A stretch of DNA of 64,000 bases from Nitrospinae bacterium CG11_big_fil_rev_8_21_14_0_20_45_15 (GTDB lineage Bacteria > Nitrospinota > Nitrospinia > Nitrospinales > VA-1), in assembly GCA_002787235.1 (NCBI GenBank), contig PCWG01000032.1:1-64000 (forward strand), in the 5' to 3' direction. The notes beneath the pieces were generated by a model, which had not been told where the DNA came from, did not search any database, and saw nothing but the letters and a program-made list of their open reading frames with translations. Shown here one piece after another: positions 46,343 to 63,370 of the stretch. A program made the position numbers and the translations under genes. Numbering within the stretch: the first letter of the stretch is position 1; the number at the start of each line of letters is the position of its first letter.

Positions 46343-46569
46343 AGGTTTCCTGACAGCAGAATGTTGGGTGGGAGTTGCTGGGATACTATAAAACCTTCTG
46401 CAAAAAATCAACTCGAAAACAACAAGCCCGCGTCTTTTAAGCTTAAAGCCTGAAATTACAAATGCCTCTTTTTCATCCCATCGCATCTCCAGCAGGAGTC
46501 TCTCCCCCCGCGCGAAAAAAATAGTCGTTACCTTGTTTTTTTAAGACGATATTTCCTTATATTTTAATA
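46343..46569. other. Intergenic region upstream of dnaA
   Basis: No gene and no DnaA box found. On the plus strand, TTGTTT (46533-46538) and TTATAT (46557-46562), 18 bases apart, are a possible promoter for the structured RNA that follows. Confidence 0.4.
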
Positions 46570-46911
46570 CGTTAGTGAAAAATCCCCTTGATCCCCCTGC
46601 CAAAGGATAGGAAGCCCGGTGAGTCGTAGGAGCTGGAAACGACGCAACGGTTGAAACCGATCCAATCAACCCGAGCCAGCACCCACACAGTCGACCGAGC
46701 CTGTCAAACGTTAACCAATCTTACCCGTCCACGATGCGCAGTGGACGTTTGCCTACCTGGACGAGCGAGGGAGCAATCCCTCGCTTCCCGCCTTCTTAAA
46801 TTGTCCAGAGGCATCAAAATACAAAAATAACAAACAAAGCGACGAGATGAAAAGTCTCATCGCTCAGAGGGGGACGTGGTTGTGGGAGCCGCGTTCCCCT
46901 TTTATTTTTTT
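46570..46911 (+). ncRNA. Candidate structured RNA or leader upstream of the phage cluster
   Basis: About 340 nt with no coding frame but a chain of stems. GTCGT/ACGAC lies at 46623-46643. CGGT-TGAA-ACCG lies at 46648-46659. A 7-bp CGTCCAC/GTGGACG lies at 46726-46747, with an alternative CAAACGT/ACGTTTG pairing at 46705-46751. A 9-bp AGCGAGGGA-GCAA-TCCCTCGCT lies at 46764-46785. A 10-bp stem with one mismatch lies at 46838-46864. The chain ends in a rho-independent terminator. No RNase P, tmRNA or SRP landmark motifs are seen. It could be a stand-alone small RNA or an antitermination leader for the phage genes 42 nt downstream. Confidence 0.5.
46869..46911 (+). terminator. Rho-independent terminator before the phage cluster
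   Basis: GGGGGACGTGG (46869-46879) pairs with CCGCGTTCCCC (46889-46899), counting G-U pairs, and is followed by TTTTATTTTTTT. It is the strongest terminator in the window on the plus strand. Confidence 0.8.
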
Positions 46912-46952: not shown

Positions 46953-47171
46953 ATGAATGAATGGCTATTGTTTTTATTATGCCTGGCAAGTTTCTGTCTG
47001 GGTTTTATCTGTAGCATCCTGCTTCTTGATTTCTTGCAAAGTTCGCAAACCCGCCAAAAAGTCAAAGCATCACAACCCGAAGCACCCACAAAAATAGAAC
47101 CAAAGCTCCATGAAACCTGCGGCGACGATGGTTCCGACCTGCAGGCATACTGGCTCCATCACCGCAATTGA
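46953..47171 (+). CDS. Small single-helix membrane protein at the start of the phage cluster
   Basis: 72 residues: one N-terminal membrane helix (about 4-28, very Leu/Cys/Phe-rich), then a polar tail. GAGGTGG lies just ahead of the ATG. It could be a holin-like or superinfection protein, but sequence alone does not show it. It is co-oriented with the head genes. Confidence 0.6.
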   Translation: MNEWLLFLLCLASFCLGFICSILLLDFLQSSQTRQKVKASQPEAPTKIEPKLHETCGDDGSDLQAYWLHHRN

Positions 47172-47185
47172 AGGGCAATTCAAAA

Positions 47186-47626
47186 ATGAAAACTTCCATC
47201 TTCAATAACGGTCTGGTCGGATTGCATGAAGAACTCGATCGAGCCCGCGAAGACATCCGCGCGATCATTCGCAGTTCGCCCGAAGATTTGCAGGCACATC
47301 GGGTGCACTGCCTGTACGCCGCAAAAATTCTTGAAGTTTACAAAACTGTTCTGCAAGCCCGCTCACTCGATCCAGAAAAAATTCTGATCGATGCCTTGAT
47401 GAGCGTGGTCCTCGTATTGAATGAAAAAGGTGAAGAACAATCTGCGGAAGTGGTGGGACGCCATCTGGAATCCATAGAAGAGAAAGCGAAGGAAAAATGG
47501 CGACGACACGGGGAAGCAAACTGGCTAACGGATACGCAAACATCCGAGCCGTCATCGAATCCTCCGCTGGAGCTTTCGGAAAAACCAGTGCCAAAGAAAA
47601 AGAAAAGCGCAAAGCCAAAGCTCTGA
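47186..47626 (+). CDS. Possible small terminase subunit
   Basis: 146 residues from the ATG at 47186 (AAGGG about ten bases upstream). Helical N-terminal half (LHEELDRAREDIRAIIRSS), then a region ending in a Lys-rich tail (VPKKKKSAKPKL). The last 130 bases overlap the large terminase gene in another frame. Position directly ahead of terL and the basic tail suggest TerS; no clear helix-turn-helix is seen. Confidence in function is low. Confidence 0.6.
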   Translation: MKTSIFNNGLVGLHEELDRAREDIRAIIRSSPEDLQAHRVHCLYAAKILEVYKTVLQARSLDPEKILIDALMSVVLVLNEKGEEQSAEVVGRHLESIEEKAKEKWRRHGEANWLTDTQTSEPSSNPPLELSEKPVPKKKKSAKPKL

Positions 47627-49101
47627 CAGATCTTTTCTATTTTGCGCAAACCTATTTTCCGCATCACTTGACCGAGAAACCGTCGGCGATGCACCGCGAG
47701 TTGTATGCAACCTATCAGTCCATCATCCTCTTGTCCGAACAAACCGGGCAGGGCGCACGCGAAGTAAGAGCCGCACCCCGCGGCAACGCCAAGTCCACAC
47801 TCAGCACATTGATATTGCCCCTCTGGTGCATTGTCGGGAAAAGGCGCCGCTTCATCGGTGTGCTTTCTGATACCACCGAACAGGCCGAAGAATTTTTAGA
47901 ATCCATCAAGGCCGAGCTGGAAGCCAACGAACGATTACGGGAAGACTTTCCCGAGGCATGCACCAGAGGGCGCACCTGGCAGGCCGGACAAATCATCACC
48001 CGCTCGGGAGTGAAAATAAAATGCTGGGGGAAACGCAAACGCCTGCGCGGCGCAAGGCATGGTGCAAGACGACCCGACCTCATCATCTGTGACGATCTCG
48101 AAGACGATGAGAACATCGATTCACCCGAGCAAAGGGAAAAAGACCGCTCCTGGTTTTTCAAAGCTGTCATGAAAATTGGCGGACGCTACTCCGTCTTCAT
48201 CGTGATCGGCACTTTGCTCCATTACGACTCTCTGCTCGCACGGCTGTTGCACCAGCCCGGCTGGCGCGGGAAAAAATGGCAGGCCGTGATCCAATGGTCG
48301 GCTTCGCCCCTTTGGGAACGCTGGGAAAACATCTTTATCAAAGATGGCGAAGAAACCGCCGATGCCTTCTTTGAAAAAAACAAAAAGGAAATGCTCAAGG
48401 GAGCCAAAGAACTCTGGCCCGAAGGAGAACCCTATTATTATTTGATGAAAATTCGACTGGCCGATGGGCCCGCCTATTTCGATTCCGAAAAACAGAACGA
48501 GCCCATCCATCCCTCGGAACGCCTGTTCGATGCAGAATGGTTTCAATACTGGAACGATGAAACCCTGTCCATGCAGGGTGGAATGGAAATCGATTCCGAT
48601 GAGAAAATCATCGCCGCTGTCGATCCCTCGATGGGCGGGGCCTCCAGTAAAGCCGATCCCTCAGCCATTGTGGTGGCCATCGTGCGCAAGAACGGCGTTC
48701 TCGACATCCTCGAAGCCGATATCCAGAAGCGGCATCCCGACCGCATCATGGAAGATCTGTTCGCATGGTATCGAATGTACCCCATGGATAGAGTGGTCAT
48801 CGAAGAAGTCCAGTTTCAGGAACTGTTCAAAGAGCATGTCCTGAGAGAAGGCGCAAAACGCGGGATGTACCTGCCCATCGAAGGCACACGCCCGCACACC
48901 GACAAAACCCTGCGTATTTCCAAACTGCAACCGCATATCAAAAACGGGTTCATACGGTTTCGTCGCAACCAGATCAGCTTGTTGAATCAGCTCAAATACT
49001 TTCCCAAAGCCGATCACGACGATGGACCCGACGCACTCGAAATGGTGTTCAGCCTGGCCAACGCACAAAGCATTCAACCACGCATCCGGCGAATTCTTTA
49101 A
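47497..49101 (+). CDS. Phage terminase large subunit
   Basis: 534 residues. ATPase domain with Walker A at residues 94-101 (PRGNAKST) and Walker B 194-202 (DLIICDDLE). The C-terminal nuclease has acidic motifs AAVDPSMGG and KADHDDGPDALEM. TerL packages DNA into the prohead and cuts the concatemer. AAGGA lies just ahead of the ATG. Overlap of 130 bases with the upstream gene is unusual but common in phages. Confidence 0.92.
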   Translation: MATTRGSKLANGYANIRAVIESSAGAFGKTSAKEKEKRKAKALTDLFYFAQTYFPHHLTEKPSAMHRELYATYQSIILLSEQTGQGAREVRAAPRGNAKSTLSTLILPLWCIVGKRRRFIGVLSDTTEQAEEFLESIKAELEANERLREDFPEACTRGRTWQAGQIITRSGVKIKCWGKRKRLRGARHGARRPDLIICDDLEDDENIDSPEQREKDRSWFFKAVMKIGGRYSVFIVIGTLLHYDSLLARLLHQPGWRGKKWQAVIQWSASPLWERWENIFIKDGEETADAFFEKNKKEMLKGAKELWPEGEPYYYLMKIRLADGPAYFDSEKQNEPIHPSERLFDAEWFQYWNDETLSMQGGMEIDSDEKIIAAVDPSMGGASSKADPSAIVVAIVRKNGVLDILEADIQKRHPDRIMEDLFAWYRMYPMDRVVIEEVQFQELFKEHVLREGAKRGMYLPIEGTRPHTDKTLRISKLQPHIKNGFIRFRRNQISLLNQLKYFPKADHDDGPDALEMVFSLANAQSIQPRIRRIL

Positions 49102-49169
49102 TAAAAATTCTACAACTCGCAAGCGGGTGAGGCGTTCACCCGTCCATTCAATTTCTAACACACATTACC

Positions 49170-50381
49170 ATGAAAATTTTCCCCTGGTTCCAAAGCAAAG
49201 CGAGCGCGACGACGCGCGCCATCACAATGATGCTTCCGTTGGGTACACCACCCATGCCGCGCATCAACTACAAAGCACTGGCAGAAGAAGGCTATTCAGG
49301 AAATACAGTGGTCTTTGCCTGCATTCGAGAAATTGCCGAAGCCTGTGCCGGGGTCGAGTGGGGTGTTTACAAAAAAATTCCCGACAGACGCAGGGAGCGC
49401 ATCCACGATCATCCCGTGCTGGAGCTGTTGCGCAAACCCAATCCCTTTCAAGGCCGTTTTGAATTGTTTGAAAGTGCGGTTTCCTATCTTTATCTTTCCG
49501 GCAACATGTATATGGAATCCGTAGACAGCGGGTCAGGTCGTGACAACCCAACACCCCCGCACGAGCTATATATATTACGACCCGACCGCATCAAAATTTT
49601 ACCGCACCCTGTTCACCGTGTCGGCGGATATGAATACGAAGTTGGCGGCAGAAAGCAGAAATTTTCCTCAAAACAAATTTTACATTTGAAACTTTTTAAT
49701 CCGCTCAGTGACTGGTACGGGTTGTCGCCCGTGCAAGTCGCATCGCTCGCCATTGACAAATTGAACCAGGGCGACCGCTGGAACGCGGCACTATTGCAAA
49801 ATTCAGCCGTCCCCTCCGGCGCACTGGTATCCAAACAAAGGTTGAGCGATGAACAGTTTCGCCGTCTGCGCGAGGAAATGCGCGAGCAATTGCAAGGCAT
49901 CCGCCATGCCCGCGAACCGCTCCTGCTGGAGCAGGATCTTGATTGGAAAGAACTCGGCGTGTCGCCCAAGGACATGGACTGGATCGAAGGCCTCAAACTC
50001 AGCGCAACTCAAATCGCGCAAGTGTTCAATGTGCCGCCCGAACTCGTGGGATTGCAGGAAGCCACCTATCAAAACCGCAAGGAAGCGCGCAAAGCTTTGT
50101 ACACCGAAGTGGTCTGCCCGGTGTTGAATCGACTGCGTGATGGTTTGAATCAGTGGCTGGTACCGCGCTACGGAACGGAGTGGAGACTGGAATACGACCG
50201 CGATTCGATCCCTGCTTTGGCAGAGGATCAGGAAAGCTTGTGGAATCGTGCCAATGAGTCCAGTTTTTTAACCATCAATGAAAAGCGTCGCCTCGTCGGT
50301 TATGGAGAAATTCCCGGCGGCGACTCGTTAAACATTCGCGATGCAGGAAGCGGAAAGGATCTTCACACCCATGAAAAATAA
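49170..50381 (+). CDS. HK97-type portal protein
   Basis: 403 residues. VVFACIREIAEACAGVEWGVY at the start, LLRKPNPFQGRFELFE, LSGNMYMESV, ILHLKLFNPLSDWYGLSPVQVA and AQVFNVPPELVGLQEATYQN are typical of the family (PF04860). The dodecameric portal forms the DNA channel at the head-tail vertex. Its end overlaps the start of the protease gene. Confidence 0.94.
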   Translation: MKIFPWFQSKASATTRAITMMLPLGTPPMPRINYKALAEEGYSGNTVVFACIREIAEACAGVEWGVYKKIPDRRRERIHDHPVLELLRKPNPFQGRFELFESAVSYLYLSGNMYMESVDSGSGRDNPTPPHELYILRPDRIKILPHPVHRVGGYEYEVGGRKQKFSSKQILHLKLFNPLSDWYGLSPVQVASLAIDKLNQGDRWNAALLQNSAVPSGALVSKQRLSDEQFRRLREEMREQLQGIRHAREPLLLEQDLDWKELGVSPKDMDWIEGLKLSATQIAQVFNVPPELVGLQEATYQNRKEARKALYTEVVCPVLNRLRDGLNQWLVPRYGTEWRLEYDRDSIPALAEDQESLWNRANESSFLTINEKRRLVGYGEIPGGDSLNIRDAGSGKDLHTHEK

Positions 50382-51075
50382 TCAAAATTTGCCAGTCCAA
50401 TCCGAACAGGGCATCAAATCATTTCCTTTCAAAATGGACAGCGTGCAGGCGGAAGGAAGTTTTTCTGGATACGCCGCAGTGTTTGGAAACATCGATCTGT
50501 GCGGCGACATCATCGATCCCGGTGCCTTCAAAAAAACGTTGAACGACAGTAAGGGTCGGGTTCCCCTGCTCGATCATCACGATCCGCAAAAACAAATCGG
50601 ATGGAATGTGTCCGCACGTGAAGACGCACGCGGCTTGTTCGTGCAAGGCAAGCTCAACCTCGAAGTTCAGGGCGCGCGCGAAAAACACGCGCTCATGAAG
50701 CAGGCGATGGAAGTGGGAGCGCGTATGGGATTATCGATTGGCTACCGCGTCATCCGCGAAGAGCTGGATAAGAAAGATCCCAACATCCGCCGACTCAAGG
50801 AAATTCAACTGATGGAATACAGTGTCGTCACCTTTCCCATGAACCCGTCCGCGCAAGTGACCGGGGTGAAAGGGCGGCGTGATTCTCTTTATCAATTTTT
50901 ATCACGGGAACTGGGACTGCCGGAAAATCAGGCCCACAGCGCGTGTGAAACACTCACTCCATTTCTACAAGCTTTGCCGGCCCAGGGTCACAAAGCAGAT
51001 ACGGAATGGGGAGCCGAAGATCTGGAACCGCTGAAACGGTCCCTGAACCATTTACTGCAACTGATAACGTCCTGA
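50371..51075 (+). CDS. HK97-family prohead protease
   Basis: About 234 residues from the ATG at 50371, which overlaps the portal stop by eleven bases. Motifs GYAAVFGNIDLCGDIIDPGAF, LLDHHDP (catalytic His) and MGLSIGYRV, EYSVVTFPMNPSAQV (catalytic Ser region). It trims the capsid protein's delta domain during assembly. The C-terminal ~60 residues are less conserved and may be a scaffold-like tail. Confidence 0.93.
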   Translation: MKNNQNLPVQSEQGIKSFPFKMDSVQAEGSFSGYAAVFGNIDLCGDIIDPGAFKKTLNDSKGRVPLLDHHDPQKQIGWNVSAREDARGLFVQGKLNLEVQGAREKHALMKQAMEVGARMGLSIGYRVIREELDKKDPNIRRLKEIQLMEYSVVTFPMNPSAQVTGVKGRRDSLYQFLSRELGLPENQAHSACETLTPFLQALPAQGHKADTEWGAEDLEPLKRSLNHLLQLITS

Positions 51076-51114
51076 CAAATGAATGAGGGCGAACTTAAAC
51101 ACAAGGAGACAGCA

Positions 51115-52311
51115 ATGAACGAAGTGAAACAACTGGTCGAAGAAGTGAATCGCGCTTTTGTCGAACACAAAAAGAAAAACGATCAGCGTCTGCAAGAACT
51201 GGAAAAAAACGGCCACGTCGATCCTCTGTTGGAAAAACAGGTCGAACGGATTTCTGCCGAAATTCAAGGATTGAACGACATGAAAGAAAGGGTTGAGCGA
51301 TTGCACACCGCTCTCAATCGACCGGGTATGGAATACACCAGCGAGCCATCCGCCGATCCTGAACGAAAAGCGCAACGCAAGGCCATGCTTCAATACATTC
51401 GCAAAGGAGAAGCCGCACTGAGTCCGCAGGAATTTAAATTGCTTTCCTCAGACAGTGATCCCGCTGGCGGATATTGGGTGGCTTCTGCCATGTCCGATCA
51501 GGTTGTGCAAAAAGTTTTTGAAACTTCTCCCATGCGCAAGATCATTGCGGTGGAAACCATCTCCGGAGACGCTCTTGAAATTCCCGAAGACATCAACGAA
51601 GCCTCCGCAGGCTGGACAGCAGAAAAAGCTTCACGACCGGAAACGGCAACACCAGACATTGGCGTACGTAGAATCCCGGTTCACGAATTGTACGCACAGC
51701 CTAAAGCAACGCAAACTTTGTTGGACGATTCGCGCATTGATATCGAGAACTGGCTGGCAAACAAGATCGCGGACAAAATTTCCCGCATGGAAAACACCGC
51801 TTTTATCAGCGGCGACGGCATCGGGAAACCACGCGGCATCCTGACTTATCCCGCTGGCACGAGCAATCCGGGTCAGGTACAGCAGATCAATTCCGGTTCG
51901 GCCTCGGCATTGACAGCCGACGGATTGCGTTCGGTCTACTACGCCTTGAAAAACCCCTACGCGGACAATGCAAGTTGGCTGTTGTCACGAAGTTCGGTCG
52001 AAGCAGTTTCAAAGTTGAAAGATTCGAGCGGACAGTATCTCTGGCAACCAGGTCTGCAAGCGGGTGAACCGCAAACGCTCATGGGCCGTCCGATCGAGCG
52101 CATGGAAGACATGCCGAACGTAGCCGCAAATTCGCTTTCAGTAGCCTTCGGTGATTGGCGGCAGGCTTACACGGCAGTGGATCGAACCGGAGTGCGCATC
52201 TTGCGCGATCCGTTCAGCGCGAAACCTTTTGTCATGTTCTACACAACCAAACGTACCGGTGGCGACGTGCTCAACTTTGAAGCCTACGTTCTCCAAAAAA
52301 CCGCCGCCTAG
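51115..52311 (+). CDS. HK97-fold major capsid protein
   Basis: 398 residues from the ATG at 51115 with AAGGAG seven bases upstream. The N-terminal ~100 residues are a coiled-coil delta domain, which the upstream protease would remove. The capsid core shows SSDSDPAGGYWVASAMSDQ, ENTAFISGDGIGKPRGIL, NASWLLSRSSVEAVSKLKD, LMGRPIERMEDMP and FGDWRQAYTAVDRTG. It is the main shell protein of a T-number icosahedral head. Confidence 0.95.
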   Translation: MNEVKQLVEEVNRAFVEHKKKNDQRLQELEKNGHVDPLLEKQVERISAEIQGLNDMKERVERLHTALNRPGMEYTSEPSADPERKAQRKAMLQYIRKGEAALSPQEFKLLSSDSDPAGGYWVASAMSDQVVQKVFETSPMRKIIAVETISGDALEIPEDINEASAGWTAEKASRPETATPDIGVRRIPVHELYAQPKATQTLLDDSRIDIENWLANKIADKISRMENTAFISGDGIGKPRGILTYPAGTSNPGQVQQINSGSASALTADGLRSVYYALKNPYADNASWLLSRSSVEAVSKLKDSSGQYLWQPGLQAGEPQTLMGRPIERMEDMPNVAANSLSVAFGDWRQAYTAVDRTGVRILRDPFSAKPFVMFYTTKRTGGDVLNFEAYVLQKTAA

Positions 52312-52705
52312 CGAACAGCGTCCGCTGGCAATAGACCGTAATAAAAACGGTTTATTAATAGGTCGGGGCGGTGGTTGTCGCTCCGCTCCGGCGGGCAGGC
52401 AACGCCTGCAGAAAAAAAAGCGAACTGGTTCAGGCTTGTATTTTACAAGTCAGCCTTTCGTCCCGCTCCGGCGGGCAGGCAACGCCTGCAGAAAAAAAAG
52501 CGAACTGGTTCAGGCTTGTATTTTACAAGTCAACCTTTCGCCCCGCTCCGGCGGGTAGCTTTTGACTTTGTAGGGGCAGGCCCCTGTGCCTGCCCGGATT
52601 TGATTTGTCATTCTGAACGGAGTGAAAAATCTATGTTTTGACTTTTAATTGCCTACGGCGACTCGCCGGTTTGATTTTAATAATTTTTTTAACGGAGCAA
52701 AAAAT
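52312..52705. repeat. Non-coding insert with an 80-bp tandem repeat and host-type repeat motifs
   Basis: Between capsid and the next head gene. An 80-bp unit starts at 52383, 52463 and 52543 (two full copies plus a partial third), with only two or three base changes between full copies. Each unit begins with CCGCTCCGGCGGGC, carries the palindrome GCAGGC-AAC-GCCTGC (52395, 52475) and ends near TTTTACAAGTC. The same palindrome and CCGGAGCGG motif occur in chromosomal gaps. A TTCTGAACGGAGTGAA motif (52613-52627) resembles the one at 10437. Confidence 0.8.
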
Positions 52706-53083
52706 ATGAAAGATATGAAAAACAATATGAAAGCGGTCAATTCCATCGACCCCGATGACTACATCGCTTCAGAAAATGGGGTGAGTGCCGATTTGCAAGG
52801 TTTCGATGGTGCCATGCTCGTGTTCAGCGTCGGCACCGTAACGGACGGGACGCACACGCCAAAGATGCAGGAATCGGATGACAACGCGACCTGGAACGAT
52901 GTCGCATCCAGCGATCAGGAGGGGACACTGGCAGACCTCGCCAGTGATACCAATCAACAGGTCGGCTACCTGGGCGTAAAACAGTACATCCGCGCTGTTT
53001 TGACAGTGGCAGGTGCAACCAGCGGAGCACAGGTTGCGGCTCTGATCGTTCTTGGCAAACCCCATTTGTCACCCGTGGCCTGA
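52706..53083 (+). CDS. Small phage structural protein, possible capsid decoration
   Basis: 125 residues from the ATG at 52706 (ACGGAG upstream). Beta-rich sequence: MLVFSVGTVTDGTHTPKMQES, then YIRAVLTVAGATSGAQVAALIVLGKP. Position directly after the capsid gene matches that of decoration or stabilising proteins in HK97-like phages. No firm family assignment. Confidence 0.65.
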   Translation: MKDMKNNMKAVNSIDPDDYIASENGVSADLQGFDGAMLVFSVGTVTDGTHTPKMQESDDNATWNDVASSDQEGTLADLASDTNQQVGYLGVKQYIRAVLTVAGATSGAQVAALIVLGKPHLSPVA

Positions 53084-53100
53084 CAGATATGGTTTGATGA

Positions 53101-53133
53101 GTGGAAAGGGCGTTAGATCGTCCTTTCCACTTT
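53101..53133 (+). terminator. 9-bp hairpin after the putative decoration gene
   Basis: GTGGAAAGG (53101-53109) and CCTTTCCAC (53122-53130) form a perfect stem with a 12-base loop, followed by TTT. It could reduce read-through from the highly expressed capsid genes to the connector genes. A repeat motif, TGAATCCAAGATTTGACCCC, follows at 53144. Confidence 0.5.
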
Positions 53134-53193
53134 CAAATGAGTATGAATCCAAGATTTGACCCCAATTATTTTTCCTCCTCTCGGTAAACTCCT

Positions 53194-53814
53194 ATGTCAC
53201 TAAAATTAAAAACAGCTCCCACAGAGGGAGCGGTAACCTTGGCTGAAGCGAAAGACTACCTGCGTATTTCAGACACGCAAGACGACCTGCAAATCACCTC
53301 ATTGATCCATGCATTGACCGAGCGGGCCGAGATGTGGACAGGCCGGGCATGGCTCGATCAAAGCTGGACACTTTGGCTCGATTCCTTTCCACTGTGTCCA
53401 AACGGTTATGCGAGGCAAATTGAAATTTCGCGCCCGCCCCTGCAATCGGTCACACATTTGAAGACTTACGATTCAGCAGGGGTGGGTTCGGTTCTCTCCG
53501 ATTCTGCCTATCTGGTGGACACCGCGAGTGTTCCGGGGCGCATTGTTTTGCAGGAAGGTCATAGTTGGCCGAGCGGCGGCTTGCGTTCTGCAAATGCGAT
53601 TGAAATCGAGTTCACGGCGGGTTACGGATCGTCCAGTGAAGTTCCTTCAGCACTGCGCGAGGGAATTCTGTTGTGGATGAAAATTCTGTTTGCGGGAAAA
53701 ACCAAATTGTTTGAATCCGATGAATCGACTCCGGGTCTGGCAAATCTGCACAACACGGAAATCCCTCCACAGACGAAGGTTCTCTGGCAACCCTATCAAC
53801 TCATGCGCTTGTGA
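53194..53814 (+). CDS. Head-tail connector (phiE125 gp8 / HK97 gp6 family)
   Basis: 206 residues. VTLAEAKDYLRISDTQDDLQI near the start is the hallmark of this family, followed by LIHALTERAEMWTGRAWLDQ and a beta-rich core (ISRPPLQSVTHLKTYDSAG). The ring-forming adaptor lies below the portal. The Shine-Dalgarno is weak. Confidence 0.88.
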   Translation: MSLKLKTAPTEGAVTLAEAKDYLRISDTQDDLQITSLIHALTERAEMWTGRAWLDQSWTLWLDSFPLCPNGYARQIEISRPPLQSVTHLKTYDSAGVGSVLSDSAYLVDTASVPGRIVLQEGHSWPSGGLRSANAIEIEFTAGYGSSSEVPSALREGILLWMKILFAGKTKLFESDESTPGLANLHNTEIPPQTKVLWQPYQLMRL

Positions 53815-53823
53815 GGAGAATGG

Positions 53824-54228
53824 ATGATGTTTCAATTTTCCATGCAAAACGAAGATGCGCTCTCAATCCTTGCGGACGATCTCAACCGCAGGTTGCAGAA
53901 CGTAGAGCAGGAAACGGCAAGTGCTCTGGCTGAATCCGCAGAACGACTGGCGCGTGAGCGGGTGCTCGATCTGAATCGCAAGCCGAATCCTAAAAGCGGT
54001 AATTACCACCAGTCGATCAAAGCAACGGTCGATAACAAATCTGCATTTTATATTGCGGAGCTGTCGAGCAACGTTCCCTACGCCGGGGCACTGGAGTTTG
54101 GGTTCTCTCGTAAAAAGAATTCATCCAAAACGAAAATGGGTTTTCGTGTTCTCGGTGATGCGGCGGAAGAAGCGGTCAACGAAACCGACCGTATTTTCAC
54201 TGAAATATTCAAAAGACAATCTGATTAG
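53824..54228 (+). CDS. HK97 gp10-like head-closure/neck protein
   Basis: 134 residues. A helical start (LADDLNRRLQNVEQETASALAESAERLARERV) is followed by SGNYHQSIKATV and NVPYAGALEFG, the typical HK97 gp10/DUF64 pattern. GGAG lies seven bases upstream. Acts at the head-tail joint. Confidence 0.83.
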   Translation: MMFQFSMQNEDALSILADDLNRRLQNVEQETASALAESAERLARERVLDLNRKPNPKSGNYHQSIKATVDNKSAFYIAELSSNVPYAGALEFGFSRKKNSSKTKMGFRVLGDAAEEAVNETDRIFTEIFKRQSD

Positions 54229-54284
54229 GAGACCACCATGCAGGAATGCAACGGACATTGTCCAGAACTAAAAGGGGTTCGGGT

Positions 54285-54761
54285 ATGACAGATTACGCGC
54301 AGTTGGCAGAGGCGATACGAACCACCTTGCTTGCAGATTCTTATCTGGGAAATGTTGCAAATATCAAAACCATCGAAACACACAAACGCGGATTCTCCAT
54401 ACAGGAAAATCGCGATGCTCTGTTTTTTGGTGAAGTCGATCTGCCAGCGATAGCGATCGTTCCAAACTCTGGCCCGAAAGAATCGGTTCTCAGTACTACC
54501 AACGAGCAGCTCGAAACGATCAAGGCTCAAGTCATAGCGGTGAGCAAGGATCGCGACGCGCAAGCCGGTCTCACGGCACATCTCAGCATTGTAGAGAATA
54601 TAGAATCGGTGCTGGAAAAGCAGAGGAGTTCGACACAAGACCTGGGGCTGGATGCCTTTGTGCGTCGGGTCGTGACAACGCAGGAACAATTGAAGAAAGG
54701 CGAATTTTATTATTTTGTATCGACGACAACAGCGGCAGTCGAATTGACGGCTACATTTTAG
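54285..54761 (+). CDS. Putative tail terminator protein
   Basis: 158 residues from the ATG at 54285 (AAGGGG upstream). An N-terminal helix is followed by a beta-alpha core (LPAIAIVPNSGPKES, then TIKAQVIAVSK) like gpU/DUF3168-type tail terminators. Placement between the gp10-like protein and the tail tube supports it. No residue-level family proof. Confidence 0.65.
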   Translation: MTDYAQLAEAIRTTLLADSYLGNVANIKTIETHKRGFSIQENRDALFFGEVDLPAIAIVPNSGPKESVLSTTNEQLETIKAQVIAVSKDRDAQAGLTAHLSIVENIESVLEKQRSSTQDLGLDAFVRRVVTTQEQLKKGEFYYFVSTTTAAVELTATF

Positions 54762-54842
54762 AATTACCAGCAGATTCAATCCAGCCCACCCAATCAATCT
54801 TGAAAGCGAAATCATTCGCCTCTATTCACAGGAGATATTTAA

Positions 54843-55886
54843 ATGACCAGCAAGCGTATATCCTCCGGCTGGCGCGCGTTTTCCACCGGGCAGGAATCTG
54901 TCTATGGAAGCCCTGCCACCGTGACGACGGCCCTTAATTTTGAAGGGGCTCCGACTGATATCGAACCGAACGAGATGCAGACTGACGAAAAAGAAATCAC
55001 CGGATTCGTCGAAGCCACGCAACACGAAACCCTCAACTGGAAGCTCGAAGGCCATCACAAGCAGAGAGCCATGCCGCACAATCTGGCGATCTTTCTGGGA
55101 TTGGTCATGGGTCAGGTGACGAGCGATCAGCCGGATGTTGGCAACGATCCTGATGTCTACCGTCACTATATCGAACGCGATCTGGTCAGCGCGGCGATGA
55201 AGTCCGTGACGCTTGTCGAGTTTGATGGTGTCGCCCAAAAACAATTTCCCGGCATTTTTGGCAAGTCGGTGAAAATTTCCGGCGAGCGCGGTCAATTCCT
55301 CAAACTCGATGCCAGTTTCGGCGGCATGGGCAAAGAGCAGGCCAGTGCGGTATCGAAGCCCTCCACGGTGGCGGAATCGTATTTGCGTTATGGCGATGTA
55401 GAGTTCACACGCGGTGGTGCCCTCAGTGGTTCCGTGTCAGGTGGCGACCTTGCCGTTGGTTCCAGTCCCACTTCATTCAAAGGCGTATTGAGGAGTTTTG
55501 AATATGCCATCAACGCCGAACCTGTTTCTTTGTATGAGATGGGTGACAATACGGGTTACGTGACGCGGGCCGAGCGGGGCGAACGCTGGAAGCAGGAATT
55601 GTCCGCCGTGTTTGAAATGGCCGACGACACGCACAAGACGGGATTGATCTCCGGTTCAGAGTACGTGCTGAGCATCCCCATCACAGGCGGAGTGATCGCA
55701 GGCGGTTCGGGTAATTTGAATTATGAAGCCCATTTCATTTTTCCCAAGGTCGTGTATCGCGAAGCCAAAAAAGCGGTGGAAGGTTCCATCGTGATTGTGA
55801 ATGGCGGATTCCAGGTGCTGGAAGATGCGACTTACGGTTCGGTGATTGTGAAAATTCAAAACAAACAAAGTTCGTATCTTGTTTAA
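54843..55886 (+). CDS. Tail tube protein
   Basis: 347 residues, beta-rich. TGQESVYGSPATVTTALNFEG at the start and SYELRYG-like repeats (YLRYGDVEFTRGG, FKGVLRSFEYAINAEP) match the phage tail-tube family (TTP). It builds the tail shaft around the tape measure. AGGAGAT lies ahead of the ATG. Confidence 0.82.
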   Translation: MTSKRISSGWRAFSTGQESVYGSPATVTTALNFEGAPTDIEPNEMQTDEKEITGFVEATQHETLNWKLEGHHKQRAMPHNLAIFLGLVMGQVTSDQPDVGNDPDVYRHYIERDLVSAAMKSVTLVEFDGVAQKQFPGIFGKSVKISGERGQFLKLDASFGGMGKEQASAVSKPSTVAESYLRYGDVEFTRGGALSGSVSGGDLAVGSSPTSFKGVLRSFEYAINAEPVSLYEMGDNTGYVTRAERGERWKQELSAVFEMADDTHKTGLISGSEYVLSIPITGGVIAGGSGNLNYEAHFIFPKVVYREAKKAVEGSIVIVNGGFQVLEDATYGSVIVKIQNKQSSYLV

Positions 55887-55909
55887 CAAGGGCAAAGGAG
55901 AGCTGAATC

Positions 55910-56287
55910 ATGGCGGTTGGATTTTATTACCCGAATAAGTCAGCACCCACCGCCCAGTGGGTTCCATCGACACAACCTGTTTTTCCATTGCAGGAAACGG
56001 TGGACTATCCCTACCAGCTCAAGGGCGAAACCGCTGGCGGGGCCTTGTATGTTCAAGAGAAGGGTCCATTAACAAAGACCGTTGAATTGAACTTTGCACG
56101 CATGACGGAGGCCGATAGAGATTCCGCTCTGGCTTTTTTCAGTGCCGTGAAAAAATCATTTCTCAGCTTCGAATACGAAAGTCCTTCCGGCATTCTGGAA
56201 ACCGTGCGCTGGATGAATGCGTTTGAATTCCAGCATGTCGTGCAGGGCAAGTATTCGGCAACGATCCAGTTGCGCAAGGAAGTATGA
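55910..56287 (+). CDS. Phage tail-associated protein of unknown function
   Basis: 125 residues with no recognised domain. Beta-rich (KTVELNFARMTEADRDSALAFF, then FEYESPSGILETVRWM). AAAGGAG is close ahead of the ATG. It may be a minor tail or tube-capping protein by position. Confidence 0.55.
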   Translation: MAVGFYYPNKSAPTAQWVPSTQPVFPLQETVDYPYQLKGETAGGALYVQEKGPLTKTVELNFARMTEADRDSALAFFSAVKKSFLSFEYESPSGILETVRWMNAFEFQHVVQGKYSATIQLRKEV

Positions 56288-56353
56288 GACAGGGCGAGTT
56301 GTTGCAACGATCAGGTGGTCTTGTGAAATATAAATCGGATGGAGAATATTTAT

Positions 56354-56674
56354 ATGATTGATTGGAAGCAGGCCCGGCCTGCGGATTTTGATTGCTCCTT
56401 TGAGGGTGAAGACATCACCGAGACCGGAACGCATATTCAGATTCCGGTGCGTGTCCTGCATCGTGAATCGGGCGAAACGGCATTCACCCGGGCGATTCCG
56501 ATCCGTGCGGATTTTTATCGCGAGTTGAAAAAACAACCGGATCATTTGCAGGCACTGGTCAAAATAGTGAATCGACGTTGCAGGGAAATGCTGTTGCAGA
56601 AAATCACAAAAGACGCGATGGAGATCGCCGACAAAGTGGATTTGATCCAGATGGATTCCCGGTCCATTCAGTGA
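56354..56674 (+). CDS. Small phage protein of unknown function
   Basis: 106 residues from the ATG at 56354 (GGAG eight bases upstream). MIDWKQARPADFDCSFEGED leads to a beta-alpha pattern and a C-terminal basic helix (LVKIVNRRCREMLLQ). No family is recognised. Expected to be tail-assembly related by position. Confidence 0.55.
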   Translation: MIDWKQARPADFDCSFEGEDITETGTHIQIPVRVLHRESGETAFTRAIPIRADFYRELKKQPDHLQALVKIVNRRCREMLLQKITKDAMEIADKVDLIQMDSRSIQ

Positions 56675-56726
56675 AGGGTTCTCCACTCAGCCTGTAAACC
56701 GTTTAATCGGAAGGAAGAAAAATATT

Positions 56727-56951
56727 TTGAAAATCATCATGCTCAAAGAACAGCACGCGGCGGTCGATGGAATCCGCGTGAAAATTTATCCAGAAGGCAG
56801 TGTTTATTCCGTGCCACGAGATTTGACAGAAGAACTGGCGCAAATTTTTCTGCGTGAAAAATGGGCCAAAGAAATTCAGAAAAATACAAAAACAAAAAAT
56901 CCGGCGGTCAGAAAAAGTTTGTCATCTGCGCCCGAAAATAAATCTGCTTAG
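56727..56951 (+). CDS. Small phage protein, TTG start
   Basis: 74 residues from a TTG at 56727 with GGAAGGAAG nine bases upstream. MKIIMLKEQHAAVDGIRVKIY-PEGSVYSVPRDLTEELA resembles short head or tail proteins of the YonK/gpFI size class. No clear family. Confidence 0.5.
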   Translation: MKIIMLKEQHAAVDGIRVKIYPEGSVYSVPRDLTEELAQIFLREKWAKEIQKNTKTKNPAVRKSLSSAPENKSA

Positions 56952-56964
56952 AAAGGAGGGCAAC

Positions 56965-57357
56965 ATGCCCATTCACGTCAATCCCCCCACGCGCAACATA
57001 CGCATACCCGTGGGTGAAAATCAGATCATCCTCAAGCTTCGCAATTACACCGCACCCGAATACAGCCAGTTCATGCGCGCGCGTTACGAAATAAAAAAAG
57101 GCAACCGGTTCACCGACAAGTCGCATGAAGCGCGCATTCAGTTTGTCGATCTTTTGCTGGTGGATGTCTGTGCAGAGGATGCAGAGGGCAACAAAGACAC
57201 AGTGGTCTTCAGCGATCCAGCGGATGGGCAAACGCGCGAGTTGACGGCGCAGGTTCCCGACTGGAAGTCACACCTCAATCCGTCCTGGAAAATATCAGCG
57301 GCGATGGAGCTGGAAGGTCAGTCTGCTGAATTGGAGCATGACTCCCTAAAAAACTGA
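56965..57357 (+). CDS. Tail assembly chaperone, short form (gpG-like)
   Basis: 130 residues from the ATG at 56965 with AAAGGAGGG seven bases upstream. IRIPVGENQIILKLRNYTAPEYSQF near the start. It ends in SLKN at TGA, where a canonical -1 slippery heptamer joins it to the next frame. This is the conserved arrangement of lambda G/GT-type chaperones ahead of the tape measure gene. Confidence 0.75.
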   Translation: MPIHVNPPTRNIRIPVGENQIILKLRNYTAPEYSQFMRARYEIKKGNRFTDKSHEARIQFVDLLLVDVCAEDAEGNKDTVVFSDPADGQTRELTAQVPDWKSHLNPSWKISAAMELEGQSAELEHDSLKN

Positions 57358-57392
57358 TGGACTATCTCCAGGTCAATGCGCCGGGGCTGGAG
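57348..57392 (+). promoter_or_regulatory. Programmed -1 ribosomal frameshift signal
   Basis: Slippery heptamer A-AAA-AAC at 57348-57354 lies exactly in phase with the zero-frame codons AAA AAC, just before TGA. A possible stem, CTCCAG (57366-57371) with CTGGAG (57387-57392), starts 11 bases downstream. A -1 shift reads on into the 57357-57650 frame and makes a fusion of about 227 residues. The downstream gene also has its own overlapping ATG. Confidence 0.75.
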
Positions 57393-57650
57393 GTAGAGTA
57401 CGAAGATTTTTTGAGTCGGGTGGAACTGGAATGTGAAGACCCGGAATGGAATGCTAAAAATCACCCGGCGCAAAAAATACTGGACCGATTTTCACCAATG
57501 TTCAAACTGTGGGTGAGCGATCTGGAAAGAGTGTCCTTGTGGAAATGTGCGGGCTACCCACTGGCCAGAGAAGATTTGGAACCGCTCGACTGGTCGGCAC
57601 TCGCTGTACTGGAATCTGTCAGAAGAAATCCAGCCCGACCCGATCCATAG
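57357..57650 (+). CDS. Tail assembly chaperone, frameshift extension (gpT-like)
   Basis: 97 residues if started at the ATG overlapping the previous stop (TGATG). Acidic, Trp-rich, with LERVSLWKCAGYPLAREDLEPLDW. As a frameshift product it would be the C-terminal T part of a G-T fusion. Between its stop and the tape measure lies a 157-nt gap with a 6-bp hairpin CCCGGT-TATT-ACCGGG (57661-57676). Confidence 0.7.
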   Translation: MDYLQVNAPGLEVEYEDFLSRVELECEDPEWNAKNHPAQKILDRFSPMFKLWVSDLERVSLWKCAGYPLAREDLEPLDWSALAVLESVRRNPARPDP

Positions 57651-57807
57651 CGGGAAACATCCCGGTTATTACCGGGAAAACCCGCATTGGAACAGGTCTA
57701 AGCACGATCGCTGATTTCTTGTTTGCATCCGTAACAGGGGATCAAAGCCATGGCAGAATTTATTCGCAGTATCATAACACAAACCACATTCACACCGGGA
57801 GCGTTCT

Positions 57808-58755
57808 ATGCCAGTTTCTACATCAGCAATGGCGTCGGCCAAAATACGAATCGAGTTCGACGACCGCTTTACCAGGGAATCGCAAAAAGCATTGGAAAAT
57901 TTCAGAAAAAATTATCAACAGATGTTCAAAGAATTTCAGGCGAATGCTTCGAAAGAAAGTGGTTTTAACAGCTTCTCACAAGGACTGGGTGTTGTTAGTG
58001 CTGGTTTAGCGGCGGGTGCGGCTAATGTGGTTACGAAATTGACGGATAAAGGAATCGGGCAATTGCTTAAAGAGGCCTTTACATCCAATGCGGAAAAGAT
58101 AAAAGAAATAGACCGCCTGAATCTGGAAATATATGAAAGGGAACAAGGCATCACAGCGCAGAGAATCGCGGACATCGAAAAAATAACCAATAAGAAAAAT
58201 GAGGAATTACGGGTTCAATCGGAGATCACGACAGCTATGGACCGGGTTGTCACGAAGACAAAAGAAATTTCCGATATCCAATCAACGATCCAGGCAATAG
58301 AAATATCCGTTTTTCTGAAAAATAGCGAGCGGGTGGTAGCGGAAGCTCTGCAATTGTATTCCGGCCTGCGATCAATATTCAGCACACCGCTTTATCAGGA
58401 AGTAAGGATCAGGCCCGTGCTGGATGGATCGGGCGGGTCAAGCTCTGGCGATATCGGGCAAAATCCGGGTGGATTTTATACCTCCGTTTCGAGCCGGATC
58501 GGGGCGACGCGTCTGGCCAAGGGCGCGGACTTCATTCCCTATGATGATTTTCCCGCGAGCCTGCACCGGGGCGAGGCGGTTCTGCCTGCGGATGTGGCGG
58601 ATCGCTATCGCAAGGGTGCGGTCGCTGGCAACATAACGATTGATAAATTCAATGTGGTCATCAGTGGTGACAACAAACGGCCGGAAGATCTGGCACGTGA
58701 TTTGTATTTCCACTTGAAACGCATCGGACAGCATATCGAAGCCAGCGTGTTCTAG
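57808..58755 (+). CDS. Short tail tape measure protein
   Basis: 315 residues. Helical, with coiled coil about 20-60 and 85-170 and a hydrophobic patch (VVSAGLAAGAANVV, about 62-75). The C-terminal FPASLHRGEAVLPADVADRY is the conserved tape-measure pattern near the end. At about 1.5 angstrom per residue the tail would be roughly 45-50 nm, close to that of gene-transfer agents. GGGAG lies six bases upstream of the ATG. Confidence 0.75.
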   Translation: MPVSTSAMASAKIRIEFDDRFTRESQKALENFRKNYQQMFKEFQANASKESGFNSFSQGLGVVSAGLAAGAANVVTKLTDKGIGQLLKEAFTSNAEKIKEIDRLNLEIYEREQGITAQRIADIEKITNKKNEELRVQSEITTAMDRVVTKTKEISDIQSTIQAIEISVFLKNSERVVAEALQLYSGLRSIFSTPLYQEVRIRPVLDGSGGSSSGDIGQNPGGFYTSVSSRIGATRLAKGADFIPYDDFPASLHRGEAVLPADVADRYRKGAVAGNITIDKFNVVISGDNKRPEDLARDLYFHLKRIGQHIEASVF

Positions 58756-58874
58756 ATTTTGACAAGCTGGTAGGCGGCTCTGCCTGCCATTTCAAATTTT
58801 AGCAGTCATTAAATCACCGTAAAACTCACCTGTTTCCCCTCTCATTTCTCACCCATACTCACCCACCCATTATT

Positions 58875-61841
58875 ATGCGAACAGATTTTACAGCACTCAA
58901 TGAAACAGTGATCGCATCGCCGACCAAAACTCCGGTGACTTTGATGCTACTGCAATGGCCGGCGCAACCGCTGGGGGCCTCGGCATTGACGTTGCGCTTG
59001 TGTGACAGGGCCGGGATCAATATTGAAGGAACCGTCTGGTATCACTTGATGGAGTCTTCCGGTGCGCTGGAGCAATTGGTCGATTCTGCCATGGCAGAAT
59101 CGGGGGCCAATGGCAGTACCAACATCGCGGTCATCAATCATCCGACCGATTTGTTTTCTCCGGCAAAACCGTTCTCACATATCTTTCGGCAATACCGACC
59201 GGAAGCGGGGCTGGTCACGCTTTATCAATGGTACGAGGGTGAGGGGATGACTTCAGCAGATCTGACCCCTCTGTTCGTGGGTCGGCCAACGGACCCGATT
59301 TCATTCGATGAAAACAGATGCTCCTTCAACGTCGTCGATGTGGCGACGGATTATGGTGAGCAAAAGCTCGGCACTTTGATCAATCTTACTGATTACCCAC
59401 TCGCCCCTGAAGCGTCGATTGGCAAGATGAAGCCAATTGTGATCGGTGCGGTTCTCAGTGCCCCGGCGATCCCGCTTCGCAAAGTATTGGAGACGCGGGT
59501 CAAGTCGGTGGTGCAAAAGGGAGGATCATTGGTCAATGTGATGGACACGACGGGGTTCCCCGCAGTGGGAACGATCATCATCAATGACGATGAAATCACT
59601 TATACAAGTAAGAACGCGACGCAGTTTTTGGGATGCACGGGCATCAACGAATTCCATTATGCCGACGACGTGGTACTGGAAAAGGTAACAGGGCATCGTT
59701 ATTTATTGAGCGATCCAGCTTACCCGATCCAGAGCATCGGCGCGGTCAAGGCGGGCGGGCATCTGACCGACCCGGCGGATTACTCGATCGATCTGGCCAA
59801 TGGCGAAGTGGTCTTCCCGGACAAGCCAAAGAAAACCGATTCTATCGACACCAAGTTTTTGCAGGCACAAATGGACGCGATTGCTTCAGCAAACAACGCC
59901 ACCGATCCCGGCAATGCCTACATCCCCAACAGTCCCGCGACCTATGCCAAGCTCAATCAAAGCGCGACTCCGCTGGCTCTCAAGCAAACGGATGACTTGC
60001 CCAATGTCGGTGAGATCGCAAGTGTGCTGGTGCGGGTCGAGCATTTCATGGAAGAAAAATTATCGAGCGATTCGTTGACTGTCGAGATTCCCGGAGTGGG
60101 TGAGTTGGGAACGCTACCGCCTCCAGCAATGGACGATCTCGCCGTGGTGACGGGCGACGTAGACATCACTCATGACACTTTGATCGGATCGCTGGCTTTC
60201 CCCATCAATCCCAGTGGTGGCGGGGCAGGCCATGTTCACAACGTATCCACGCCCGGTACGACAGAAGATCAGAACGAAACCACGACACCGAAACTGACAT
60301 CAACAACGATTCCCGCCTGGGCAGGAACAAAACTTGAAACTGTTACTTTGACCTTTCCCCCTTTAGTAGGGAGCCCTCCGCAGAGCTACACCTACACGCT
60401 TGATCTGGTGGGCGATATCACAGGTTTTGTGACGGGCAAGCGCGTGCGTGCTTATCTGGAGGGAGTGGAAATTTACCATTGGTTTGAAGGAACGGTGATC
60501 ACCAATTTAACGTCGCTATATAAAAGCGGCACGCCATCGGACAGTGTAGACATTGATGTGACTTACACAATTTCTCCGGTTGAGAGTATTGGCCAAACCG
60601 GACGTTTTGACATTCAGTCACAGATTGTGCGGACGGTGGATATAGGAGGCTCGGATATCACGGACTCGCAACTCGACGCATTGGACACCGAACAGACGGG
60701 TGCGCTTGAAACCACAACAGGAACCCCGGCCCTCAATACGACCAGCGAAAAAGCCACAAAAACGGTGGTGAAGCATTTTGATATCACCAGCACGGTCAAT
60801 GGCGATTGGGGCTGGTTCAAGGACAAAGAAATCCATGTGCTGTACAACGGCACTTCGGACGGTCGAACAGCTTTTATTATTCACATGGCTTTTGAAATCG
60901 AATACGCGCGCCGACGTGTGAGCTTCACCGATGAAATCAGCGCGGATGTGAACGGTGTGATCGACGATGCGAGCGGGAGCGTGACAGGCACGTCATCGGC
61001 TTTGATCGAACGTCCCGATCATGTTTACAAATGGTCGGTGTTGATGGGTCTTCTAAAAACCACTTCTGAAATTGACAGCACATCTTTCACCAGTGCGGGA
61101 TCGTTTTACACGACGCAGGCGGGTGGCTACGCCTTGGCGGGTATCGTGCAAAGCCAAAGCGCGTGGCGGGATTTGTGGCGCGAGTGGGGGCGTTCTTGCC
61201 GTTCTTCGTTTTATTGGGATCTGGGCAAGGCGAAGATTCTAATTCGACCGCTCAACCGGGTGGACCTTGCTACGACTTACGATCAGGCGATTGATCCCGA
61301 CGATCTGCGCCTGGACAGTGACAAGCGTTTGATCTTCAAAACTGAGCGCGGTGCGTCACGCAACATCGTCAATGCCATCGATCTGAAATACCAGAAAAAC
61401 TGGAGCGGTGGCGAGACCGAACCTTATTCAGGTATCGTTTCAATCAGTGATGAGGAGTCTATAACGCGCTATGACAGACGCGAGGATGCCAGCCGATTCC
61501 AGTTTGACTGGGTGCGTGAGCAGGCAATGGCTGAAGACCTTGCGGAATTTTATCTCGAAGAATATGCCGAGCCGCTGGATGTTTACGACTTTGAATTGTT
61601 CCTGCCTTATATGGCTCTGGAGCGCGGTGACATCATTCGTCTGAATCCGCCGTCACACGATCTGGACAACGTTCTTTGTGTGGTGCTCGGTGTGGGCCGG
61701 GTTTTCGGATCGGGCAAGGAAGGACGCATGGATTCGATACCGGTTACAGCGCGCGCGATGCGTGGATCGTATGCGGTCACGGGTGGGTTTGGTGTGGCTC
61801 CATTCGGAGTGAGTGGTTTTGGCGGCGTGGCAAAAATTTAA
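58875..61841 (+). CDS. Large tail tip / baseplate protein
   Basis: 988 residues, the largest phage gene. The first ~170 residues resemble a distal-tail module (SPTKTPVTLMLLQWPAQPLG, SFNVVDVATDYGEQKLG). A middle region holds Ig-like/fibre-like beta repeats with Thr/Ser-rich linkers (about 400-680). The C-terminal ~250 residues have hub-like features (GDIIRLNPP, VLGVGRVFGSG). It appears to combine distal tail, hub and tip functions in one chain; no peptidase motif was found. Confidence 0.72.
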   Translation: MRTDFTALNETVIASPTKTPVTLMLLQWPAQPLGASALTLRLCDRAGINIEGTVWYHLMESSGALEQLVDSAMAESGANGSTNIAVINHPTDLFSPAKPFSHIFRQYRPEAGLVTLYQWYEGEGMTSADLTPLFVGRPTDPISFDENRCSFNVVDVATDYGEQKLGTLINLTDYPLAPEASIGKMKPIVIGAVLSAPAIPLRKVLETRVKSVVQKGGSLVNVMDTTGFPAVGTIIINDDEITYTSKNATQFLGCTGINEFHYADDVVLEKVTGHRYLLSDPAYPIQSIGAVKAGGHLTDPADYSIDLANGEVVFPDKPKKTDSIDTKFLQAQMDAIASANNATDPGNAYIPNSPATYAKLNQSATPLALKQTDDLPNVGEIASVLVRVEHFMEEKLSSDSLTVEIPGVGELGTLPPPAMDDLAVVTGDVDITHDTLIGSLAFPINPSGGGAGHVHNVSTPGTTEDQNETTTPKLTSTTIPAWAGTKLETVTLTFPPLVGSPPQSYTYTLDLVGDITGFVTGKRVRAYLEGVEIYHWFEGTVITNLTSLYKSGTPSDSVDIDVTYTISPVESIGQTGRFDIQSQIVRTVDIGGSDITDSQLDALDTEQTGALETTTGTPALNTTSEKATKTVVKHFDITSTVNGDWGWFKDKEIHVLYNGTSDGRTAFIIHMAFEIEYARRRVSFTDEISADVNGVIDDASGSVTGTSSALIERPDHVYKWSVLMGLLKTTSEIDSTSFTSAGSFYTTQAGGYALAGIVQSQSAWRDLWREWGRSCRSSFYWDLGKAKILIRPLNRVDLATTYDQAIDPDDLRLDSDKRLIFKTERGASRNIVNAIDLKYQKNWSGGETEPYSGIVSISDEESITRYDRREDASRFQFDWVREQAMAEDLAEFYLEEYAEPLDVYDFELFLPYMALERGDIIRLNPPSHDLDNVLCVVLGVGRVFGSGKEGRMDSIPVTARAMRGSYAVTGGFGVAPFGVSGFGGVAKI

Positions 61842-61861
61842 TTTATTGAGGCGAAAATAAA

Positions 61862-62914: not shown

Positions 62915-62929
62915 GAGAGGATATCAAAA

Positions 62930-63349
62930 ATGTCAAAGTACAAAATAATCAATGCCCCCAATATTTTGAATACAGAAACAGGCGCGCAAATTCCCAACGA
63001 TCCAGCAAATGCGGACTGGCAAGAATATCAGGAATGGTTGACCGATCCCGCAAATACTCCCGATCCTGCTGATGCGGTCGTAGTGACAGCGGATATGATT
63101 AAAACGGAAGCGCGTCGGCGTATCCTTGAGAAATATCCCGAATGGAAACAGGCGAATCTGACCGCGCGCATGGTGGAGCTGAACAAGATCCGTGCCAGTG
63201 TGGGCAGTTGGACCGCTGGCGAGCAGATGGAGGTCGATGCCATCCAGTCGGCCTGGGATTGGGTCAAGTCCGTGCGTTCCGCATCCGATGCGCTGGAGCT
63301 GATCCTGCCGGTGGATTATCAGGACAACAGCTATTGGCCTGCGTTCTAA
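62930..63349 (+). CDS. Small phage protein after the fibre gene
   Basis: 139 residues. YKIINAPNILNTETGAQIPNDPAN, DWQEYQEWL, then a helical C-terminal half (ARRRILEKYPEWKQANLTARMVE). The pattern is that of accessory tail-fibre proteins encoded next to fibres. AGAGAGGAT precedes the ATG. Confidence 0.62.
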   Translation: MSKYKIINAPNILNTETGAQIPNDPANADWQEYQEWLTDPANTPDPADAVVVTADMIKTEARRRILEKYPEWKQANLTARMVELNKIRASVGSWTAGEQMEVDAIQSAWDWVKSVRSASDALELILPVDYQDNSYWPAF

Positions 63350-63370
63350 AATAGAGAAAGGTTGCAAACA

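Follow-up and report, generated by a model that had tools for sequence, protein, structure and literature searches.

What is carried by the segment that lies between dnaA and a run of phage-type genes in Nitrospinae bacterium CG11_big_fil_rev_8_21_14_0_20_45_15? The segment (46570-46911) belongs to the window analyzed here, a stretch of 64,000 nucleotides from contig PCWG01000032.1. A first-pass annotation had described it as non-coding and heavily structured, with five or more stable stems ending in a strong rho-independent terminator 42 nt ahead of the first phage gene, and had offered two readings: a new small RNA or a leader whose terminator must be overcome to express the structural genes of a phage late operon. 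We examined the segment, its relatives, and the adjoining genes. The closest named relative recovered by searching is a Nitrospinaceae MAG.

Structure of the segment

Folded as the + strand, the segment reaches -117.5 kcal/mol, compared with -91.2 ± 5.1 kcal/mol for dinucleotide shuffles (z = -5.16; 0 of 100), and the - strand shows a weaker excess (z = -2.29). The signal resides in the 3' domain, which alone gives a z of -5.1; upstream of 46717, over the first ~150 nt, no structure beyond chance was found (5' domain, z = +1.2; middle, z = +0.4). The earlier count of five or more stems was not confirmed; hairpins A, B, and C and terminator D were recovered, all downstream of 46717 (Table 1). 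Its 7-bp stem corresponds to hairpin A, its 9-bp stem with a GCAA loop to hairpin B, and its 10-bp stem with a mismatch to hairpin C, and the terminator was confirmed as a stem followed by TATTTTTTT. The reported lack of known RNA landmarks also stands: no Rfam 15 family exceeded its gathering cut-off in the whole window, and the segment had no meaningful match at E ≤ 10. Assignment as 6S RNA (RF00013) was rejected, as the 6S RNA of this genome sits elsewhere (G000:C38, 94.1 bits). A single structured RNA of 342 nt was likewise rejected, given that structure is confined to the 3' part and that the 5' block is conserved in g6 without the phage-type genes.

In the sister genome G025, a DNA search recovered three blocks of the segment at the corresponding location. 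The stem core of terminator D is near-identical there and was not found in other genera. No sigma-70 consensus promoter was detected at the leader, including the AT-rich upstream module, the equivalent of which persists in g6 genomes that lack the phage cluster and is probably not part of the cluster's leader. In g6, this module reads TACTTAATTTTTAAA ... ACCTTGTTC ... TTACATAGTTAAGAGGGTT and is conserved in genomes that lost the phage cluster.

Table 1. Features of the dnaA-proximal locus, in window coordinates
Feature	Coordinates	Strand	Remarks
dnaA	44981..46342	-	Divergent neighbor in all loci
Upstream module	46520..46625	+	AT-rich, promoter-like sequence; fold not above chance
Conserved leader core, ~80 nt	46717..46797	+	Pyrimidine strand, hairpin A, C-rich linker, hairpin B, C-rich tail; R1 match of 56.6 bits
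Hairpin A	46726..46747	+	CGTCCAC-[GATGCGCA]-GTGGACG; loop has palindrome UGCGCA
C/U-rich linker	46748..46762	+	TTTGCCTACCTGGAC; unpaired between hairpins A and B
Hairpin B	46763..46786	+	GAGCGAGGGA-[GCAA]-TCCCTCGCTT; 10 bp
C-rich tail	46787..46797	+	No U-tract; directly 3' of hairpin B
Hairpin C	46838..46864	+	Present in G000 and G025 only
Intrinsic terminator D	46866..46911	+	Stem 46866-46902 plus T-tract; GC-rich hairpin followed directly by a U-tract
Small ORF	46953..47171	+	42 nt after terminator; no homolog in relatives
First conserved cluster gene	47186..47626	+	Small-terminase (terS) position; 37-87% identity in seven relatives; no family match
Large terminase, TerL	47497..49101	+	
Portal, prohead protease, HK97 major capsid protein	49170..52311	+	
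Connector, neck, and tail genes	52649..63349	+	Same cluster; includes tail tube

A conserved two-hairpin core

In most genera of the family, the dnaA upstream regions have a common 3' architecture that outlasts DNA identity. In order, it comprises a C/U-rich strand, hairpin A (with a loop of the GCGC type), a C-rich linker, hairpin B, and a C-rich tail. A covariance model of this element, R1, was trained on sequences from 18 genomes and gave one strong match per genome in the order. R1 also matched four genomes outside its training set, namely G024 (72.4 bits) and, from a second family, f4, G052 (33.5 bits), G054 (30.6 bits), and G056 (29.8 bits), in every case between divergent dnaA and cluster genes where the contig shows the flanks. 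A distant relative (L140) retains a weak syntenic match with a UGCGCA loop. The only other match of the phylum-wide search, in G065 (2.8e-4), lies inside a coding gene and was attributed to chance.

A first consensus fold on a MAFFT alignment recovered almost nothing, with the stems out of register. In an alignment of 22 sequences fitted to R1, 59 double-change cells keep pairing, compared with 25.2 ± 4.6 in shuffled alignments (0 of 500 reach 59), and the covariation score is 0.428 against 0.230; with genera unevenly sampled and same-genus sequences not independent, these values constitute support rather than proof. When the pair partners are slid, all covariation measures drop, with one exception: at -1, the count of pair types rises by one. 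An arm-swap test also favors hairpin pairing, with a bias arising from the selection of the best stem per sequence. The covariance model proposed earlier as a check on the segment thus finds the stems of the core conserved and covarying among relatives and syntenic across two families.

The two hairpins differ in how they stand out individually. For hairpin B, 17 of the 22 sequences are above the 95th percentile of shuffles; for hairpin A, only 3 of 22 are, which is weak alone, so that this hairpin rests on conservation and covariation. Among non-Watson-Crick cells in the core stems, G.T outnumbers A.C by 16 to 5 (p = 0.013), an excess that favors + strand RNA. Across the 22 sequences, the unpaired part of the core is 45.5% C, 36% U, and 6% G. 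Because a C-rich tail follows hairpin B in most of 21 genomes, the hairpin is not an intrinsic terminator there, that is, a GC-rich hairpin directly followed by a U-tract; U-rich sequence lies 3' of hairpin B in G026 and G001.

The hairpin A loop contains a palindrome of at least 4 nt in 21 of 22 sequences and of at least 6 nt in 14, above shuffled loops, although palindromes come easily to a GYRY-type loop and the sequences, being related, do not count as independent. Self-pairing of this loop is an intriguing but weak hint, offered as speculation. By eye, a purine-rich block at the 5' side could pair with the linker over 7-9 bp in several genomes; a two-state, attenuator-type switch built on this pairing was rejected, as cognate duplexes were no better than permuted ones (p ~0.18; 0.5 at the genus level). 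The terminator and leader hairpins are ordinary parts, yet the conserved two-hairpin leader element is undescribed as a whole.

A vertically inherited GTA-like cluster beside dnaA

The nature of the downstream genes bears on what the core could control. The ORF at 46953, previously taken as the first phage gene, is not evidently of phage origin: neither a family match nor a homolog, even in the nearest relative, was found for it, and the first conserved cluster gene begins further downstream. In the window, the cluster spans 46953-63628. Its first gene differs among genera, and in most of them lysis-type genes precede the terminase. Beyond the window, the far end (G000:C21:64168-68361, L059) encodes a CI-like S24 repressor and, divergently, a long coiled-coil/ATPase-like protein, a Cys-rich protein, and a sigma-region-4-like protein. 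In most of the genera examined, this repressor and its divergent operon are syntenic. The model of the sigma-like protein is of low confidence; its C-terminal part resembles sigma region 4, and a fold search gave no match under E = 0.001; a fold search with the Cys-rich protein gave no meaningful match. Two further features were observed along the locus. Short direct repeats (CRKKSELVQACILQV-type translations) occupy 52350-52640, between the capsid gene and the next gene, and a gene for a response-regulator receiver domain lies on the opposite strand at 63671-63955, between the tail genes and the repressor, as it does in G025, G026, and G043.

TerL was found in 19 and the capsid protein in 20 of the 46 family genomes. 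These genomes represent seven of nine genera, and in most cases the genes lie near dnaA on one contig. Particle proteins derived from caudoviricetes are encoded (TerL, portal, protease, HK97 capsid, connector, and tail tube), and the locus keeps the same chromosomal place beside dnaA in two families, which corresponds to endogenization as defined for GTAs (PMC9662315). Several lines of evidence indicate vertical inheritance and co-diversification with the host. Divergence of TerL and of the capsid follows that of DnaA (Mantel r of 0.88 and 0.905, respectively; 0 of 2,000 permutations). In a TerL tree, the 20 Nitrospinota sequences are monophyletic with a support of 0.988. Across 2.9 million viral contigs scanned, the best TerL relative among the matches listed has 52% identity, compared with at least 58% within Nitrospinota. 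The dN/dS values of 0.046 (TerL) and 0.026 (capsid), obtained with dS near saturation, point to purifying selection on the cluster.

The GTA definition additionally requires that particles package mostly random host DNA, amounting to less than their own genome, and deliver it to other cells (PMC9662315). By the genomic part of this definition, the "phage genes" form a GTA-like cluster that is passed on vertically next to dnaA, and not the ordinary phage late operon first envisaged. Such a cluster is not mentioned in the Nitrospinota genome papers that we compared and is apparently undescribed so far.

The core is lost with the cluster

Presence of the core follows that of the cluster closely. 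All 19 family genomes with terL carry the core, compared with 1 of 27 without terL (Fisher p ~5e-12), and the single exception, G024, keeps a remnant of the cluster. Physical linkage alone could explain part of this co-occurrence. Because the core and the cluster are adjacent, decay is more telling. Six g6 genomes have no cluster genes; in these, identity over the best-conserved stretch of the core is 0.38 (decayed pairs), down from 0.90 for intact pairs, whereas the immediately upstream module still shows 0.65-0.72. Decay of the core without the cluster, next to an upstream module that persists, indicates that the core belongs to the cluster; for the module, an association with dnaA or some other role is probable. 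Not every cluster has the complete element: G015 keeps terL and the capsid gene and has lost hairpin B, and L138 has TerL beside dnaA with no recognizable leader. We nonetheless regard the link between the leader core and the cluster as well supported, and the earlier association of a structured element with the structural genes is borne out for the core. From the pattern of loss across genomes, an element that vanishes along with the phage-particle genes is probably a control switch for them.

How the core may act

We propose that the core is a cis-acting structured 5' leader of the GTA-like cluster, most likely acting on transcription elongation and triggered by the regulators of the cluster. 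Based on comparison of sequences, we assign this reading a probability of roughly 0.5. The leader would be transcribed away from dnaA, and its two hairpins, with the flanking C-rich, G-poor strands, would decide whether RNA polymerase continues into the cluster. The core might serve as a Rho-sensitive attenuator, in keeping with its C-rich leader. Alternatively, it might be a signal of the put/nut type, by which polymerase is carried past stops further along, terminator D being one such stop in the window species. Triggering would fall to the regulators encoded at the far end of the cluster, the CI-like S24 repressor and the divergent sigma-region-4-like and Cys-rich proteins.

Spacing bears on the level of action. 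Hairpin B ends 21-32 nt before the first conserved start codon in g4, g5, g8, and g2, which would suit translational control in which the ribosome binding site of the first gene is masked or freed by hairpin B and its C-rich tail. That distance, however, rises to 56 nt in g6, ~100 nt in f4, 129 nt in G026, 246 nt in G025, and 399 nt in the window, and the first gene is not constant. A spacing of 21-399 nt combined with differing first genes points to a transcriptional rather than a translational target. With control of one ribosome site thus disfavored, and in our estimate improbable, transcription elongation is the most economical level left. A free-standing small RNA, the other reading originally offered, would end at or after hairpin B and pair, through its C-rich, anti-Shine-Dalgarno-like single strands (CCUACCU, CCUCC, CCUUCC), with ribosome sites on mRNAs of the cluster or the host. 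Three C-rich single strands surround the two hairpins in all members, hairpin B precedes U-rich sequence in G026 and G001, and ending at terminator D would yield an RNA of ~340 nt in the window species. Most genomes, however, have the C-rich tail and then a start codon within 21-57 nt, with no terminator after the conserved core, and the core always occurs in cis to the cluster and never elsewhere in the genome. We therefore consider a small RNA unlikely and weaker than a cis leader, if slightly less so than translational control.

The hairpins could also reflect inverted repeats in DNA, inherited from the ancestral phage as a packaging-initiation or regulator-binding site and unused as RNA. 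The position just before the terminase genes in the window genus and the palindrome in nearly all hairpin A loops are consistent with such a site. Against it, the stems vary with compensatory changes and keep no single recognition sequence, strand-asymmetric C-richness and the G.T excess favor RNA, and the terminase is preceded by lysis-type genes in most genera; we hold it to be about as improbable as translational control. Terminator D and the hairpins might instead only insulate the cluster from stray transcription with no regulated read-through. D is a canonical terminator, and excerpts of two papers describe terminators as often shielding mobile elements from adjoining transcription (PMC11658703, PMC8955417). 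With dnaA divergent, though, there would be little upstream transcription to block, and the conserved part is the two-hairpin core, which mostly lacks a U-tract and is lost with the cluster. Insulation alone thus seems very unlikely.

To return to the cis-acting leader, in the window species and G025, where terminator D separates the core from the genes, read-through would be needed unless a promoter lies in the remaining gap. Antitermination past D cannot be the general function of the core, since D occurs in only two genomes. The suggestion that a terminator must be overcome thus survives in part: it is plausible and has a precedent in the GTA of Caulobacter, but the terminator is limited to G000 and G025, and hairpin B is mostly not one.

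Comparison with known systems

In lambda-type nut sites (boxA/boxB), the leader signal consists of a hairpin and single-stranded segments, and rut (Rho utilization) sites are typically C-rich, G-poor strands. The Nitrospinota core resembles both in combining hairpins with C-rich, G-poor single strands; unlike lambda nut, no boxA-like conserved word was seen in it. The putRNA of HK022 is likewise a leader element of ~70-80 nt with two stem-loops upstream of terminators; its two stems adjoin, and their specific fold needs no added proteins to act in early operons of phages (PMC9378689). In the Nitrospinota core, by contrast, the stems are split by a C-rich linker of 10-15 nt and there is no Rfam match, the comparison with put being one of anatomy and context only.

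A direct precedent among GTAs is CcGTA of Caulobacter, for which excerpts of a published account describe a 229-nt UTR, a terminator, and antitermination by GafZ (PMC11150451). According to the same excerpts, the terminator terGTA follows the first gene and is made up of three 150-bp repeats, the DNA between -10 and -35 is the putative GafZ element, and the repressor RogA controls the activators GafY and GafZ (PMC11150451). As in CcGTA, a GTA structural cluster here would sit behind a long untranslated leader and a terminator, and the counterpart of RogA would be the CI-like repressor facing small HTH/Cys-rich genes, which are candidate regulators. The excerpts describe no conserved RNA hairpin pair in the CcGTA leader (PMC11150451), in contrast to the Nitrospinota core. 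With RcGTA-type (alphaproteobacterial type I) GTAs, the locus shares HK97-type head genes, compactness, and vertical inheritance with the host; it differs in phylum, in its Nitrospinota-specific TerL clade, and in its place beside dnaA (PMC9662315).

Implications and further features of the locus

Through this locus, Nitrospinota would join the lineages with a GTA-like cluster, in this case one kept by vertical descent, and the conserved leader element offers a handle on when such a cluster switches on, with regulated read-through of the leader as the prediction. Nitrospinota are major marine nitrite oxidizers. GTAs have been documented in few lineages, mostly alphaproteobacteria, and direct activators of the cluster have been worked out in Rhodobacter and Caulobacter. 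"Prophages" of this kind are better judged by inheritance than by gene content alone.

The surroundings of dnaA provide additional observations. The sign of the GC skew flips near 50 kb, and two DnaA-box-like sites (44945 and 44967) lie on the dnaA-gyrB side, from which the cluster may be close to the replication origin. An origin on the leader side of dnaA was considered and rejected, as no consistent DnaA boxes were found there. Several family members have no cluster beside dnaA, namely those with loci L036 (G005) and L065-L068 (G030, G032, G037, and G010). In four of these loci, an etfB-like gene directly follows dnaA, an adjacency that suggests clean loss of the locus.
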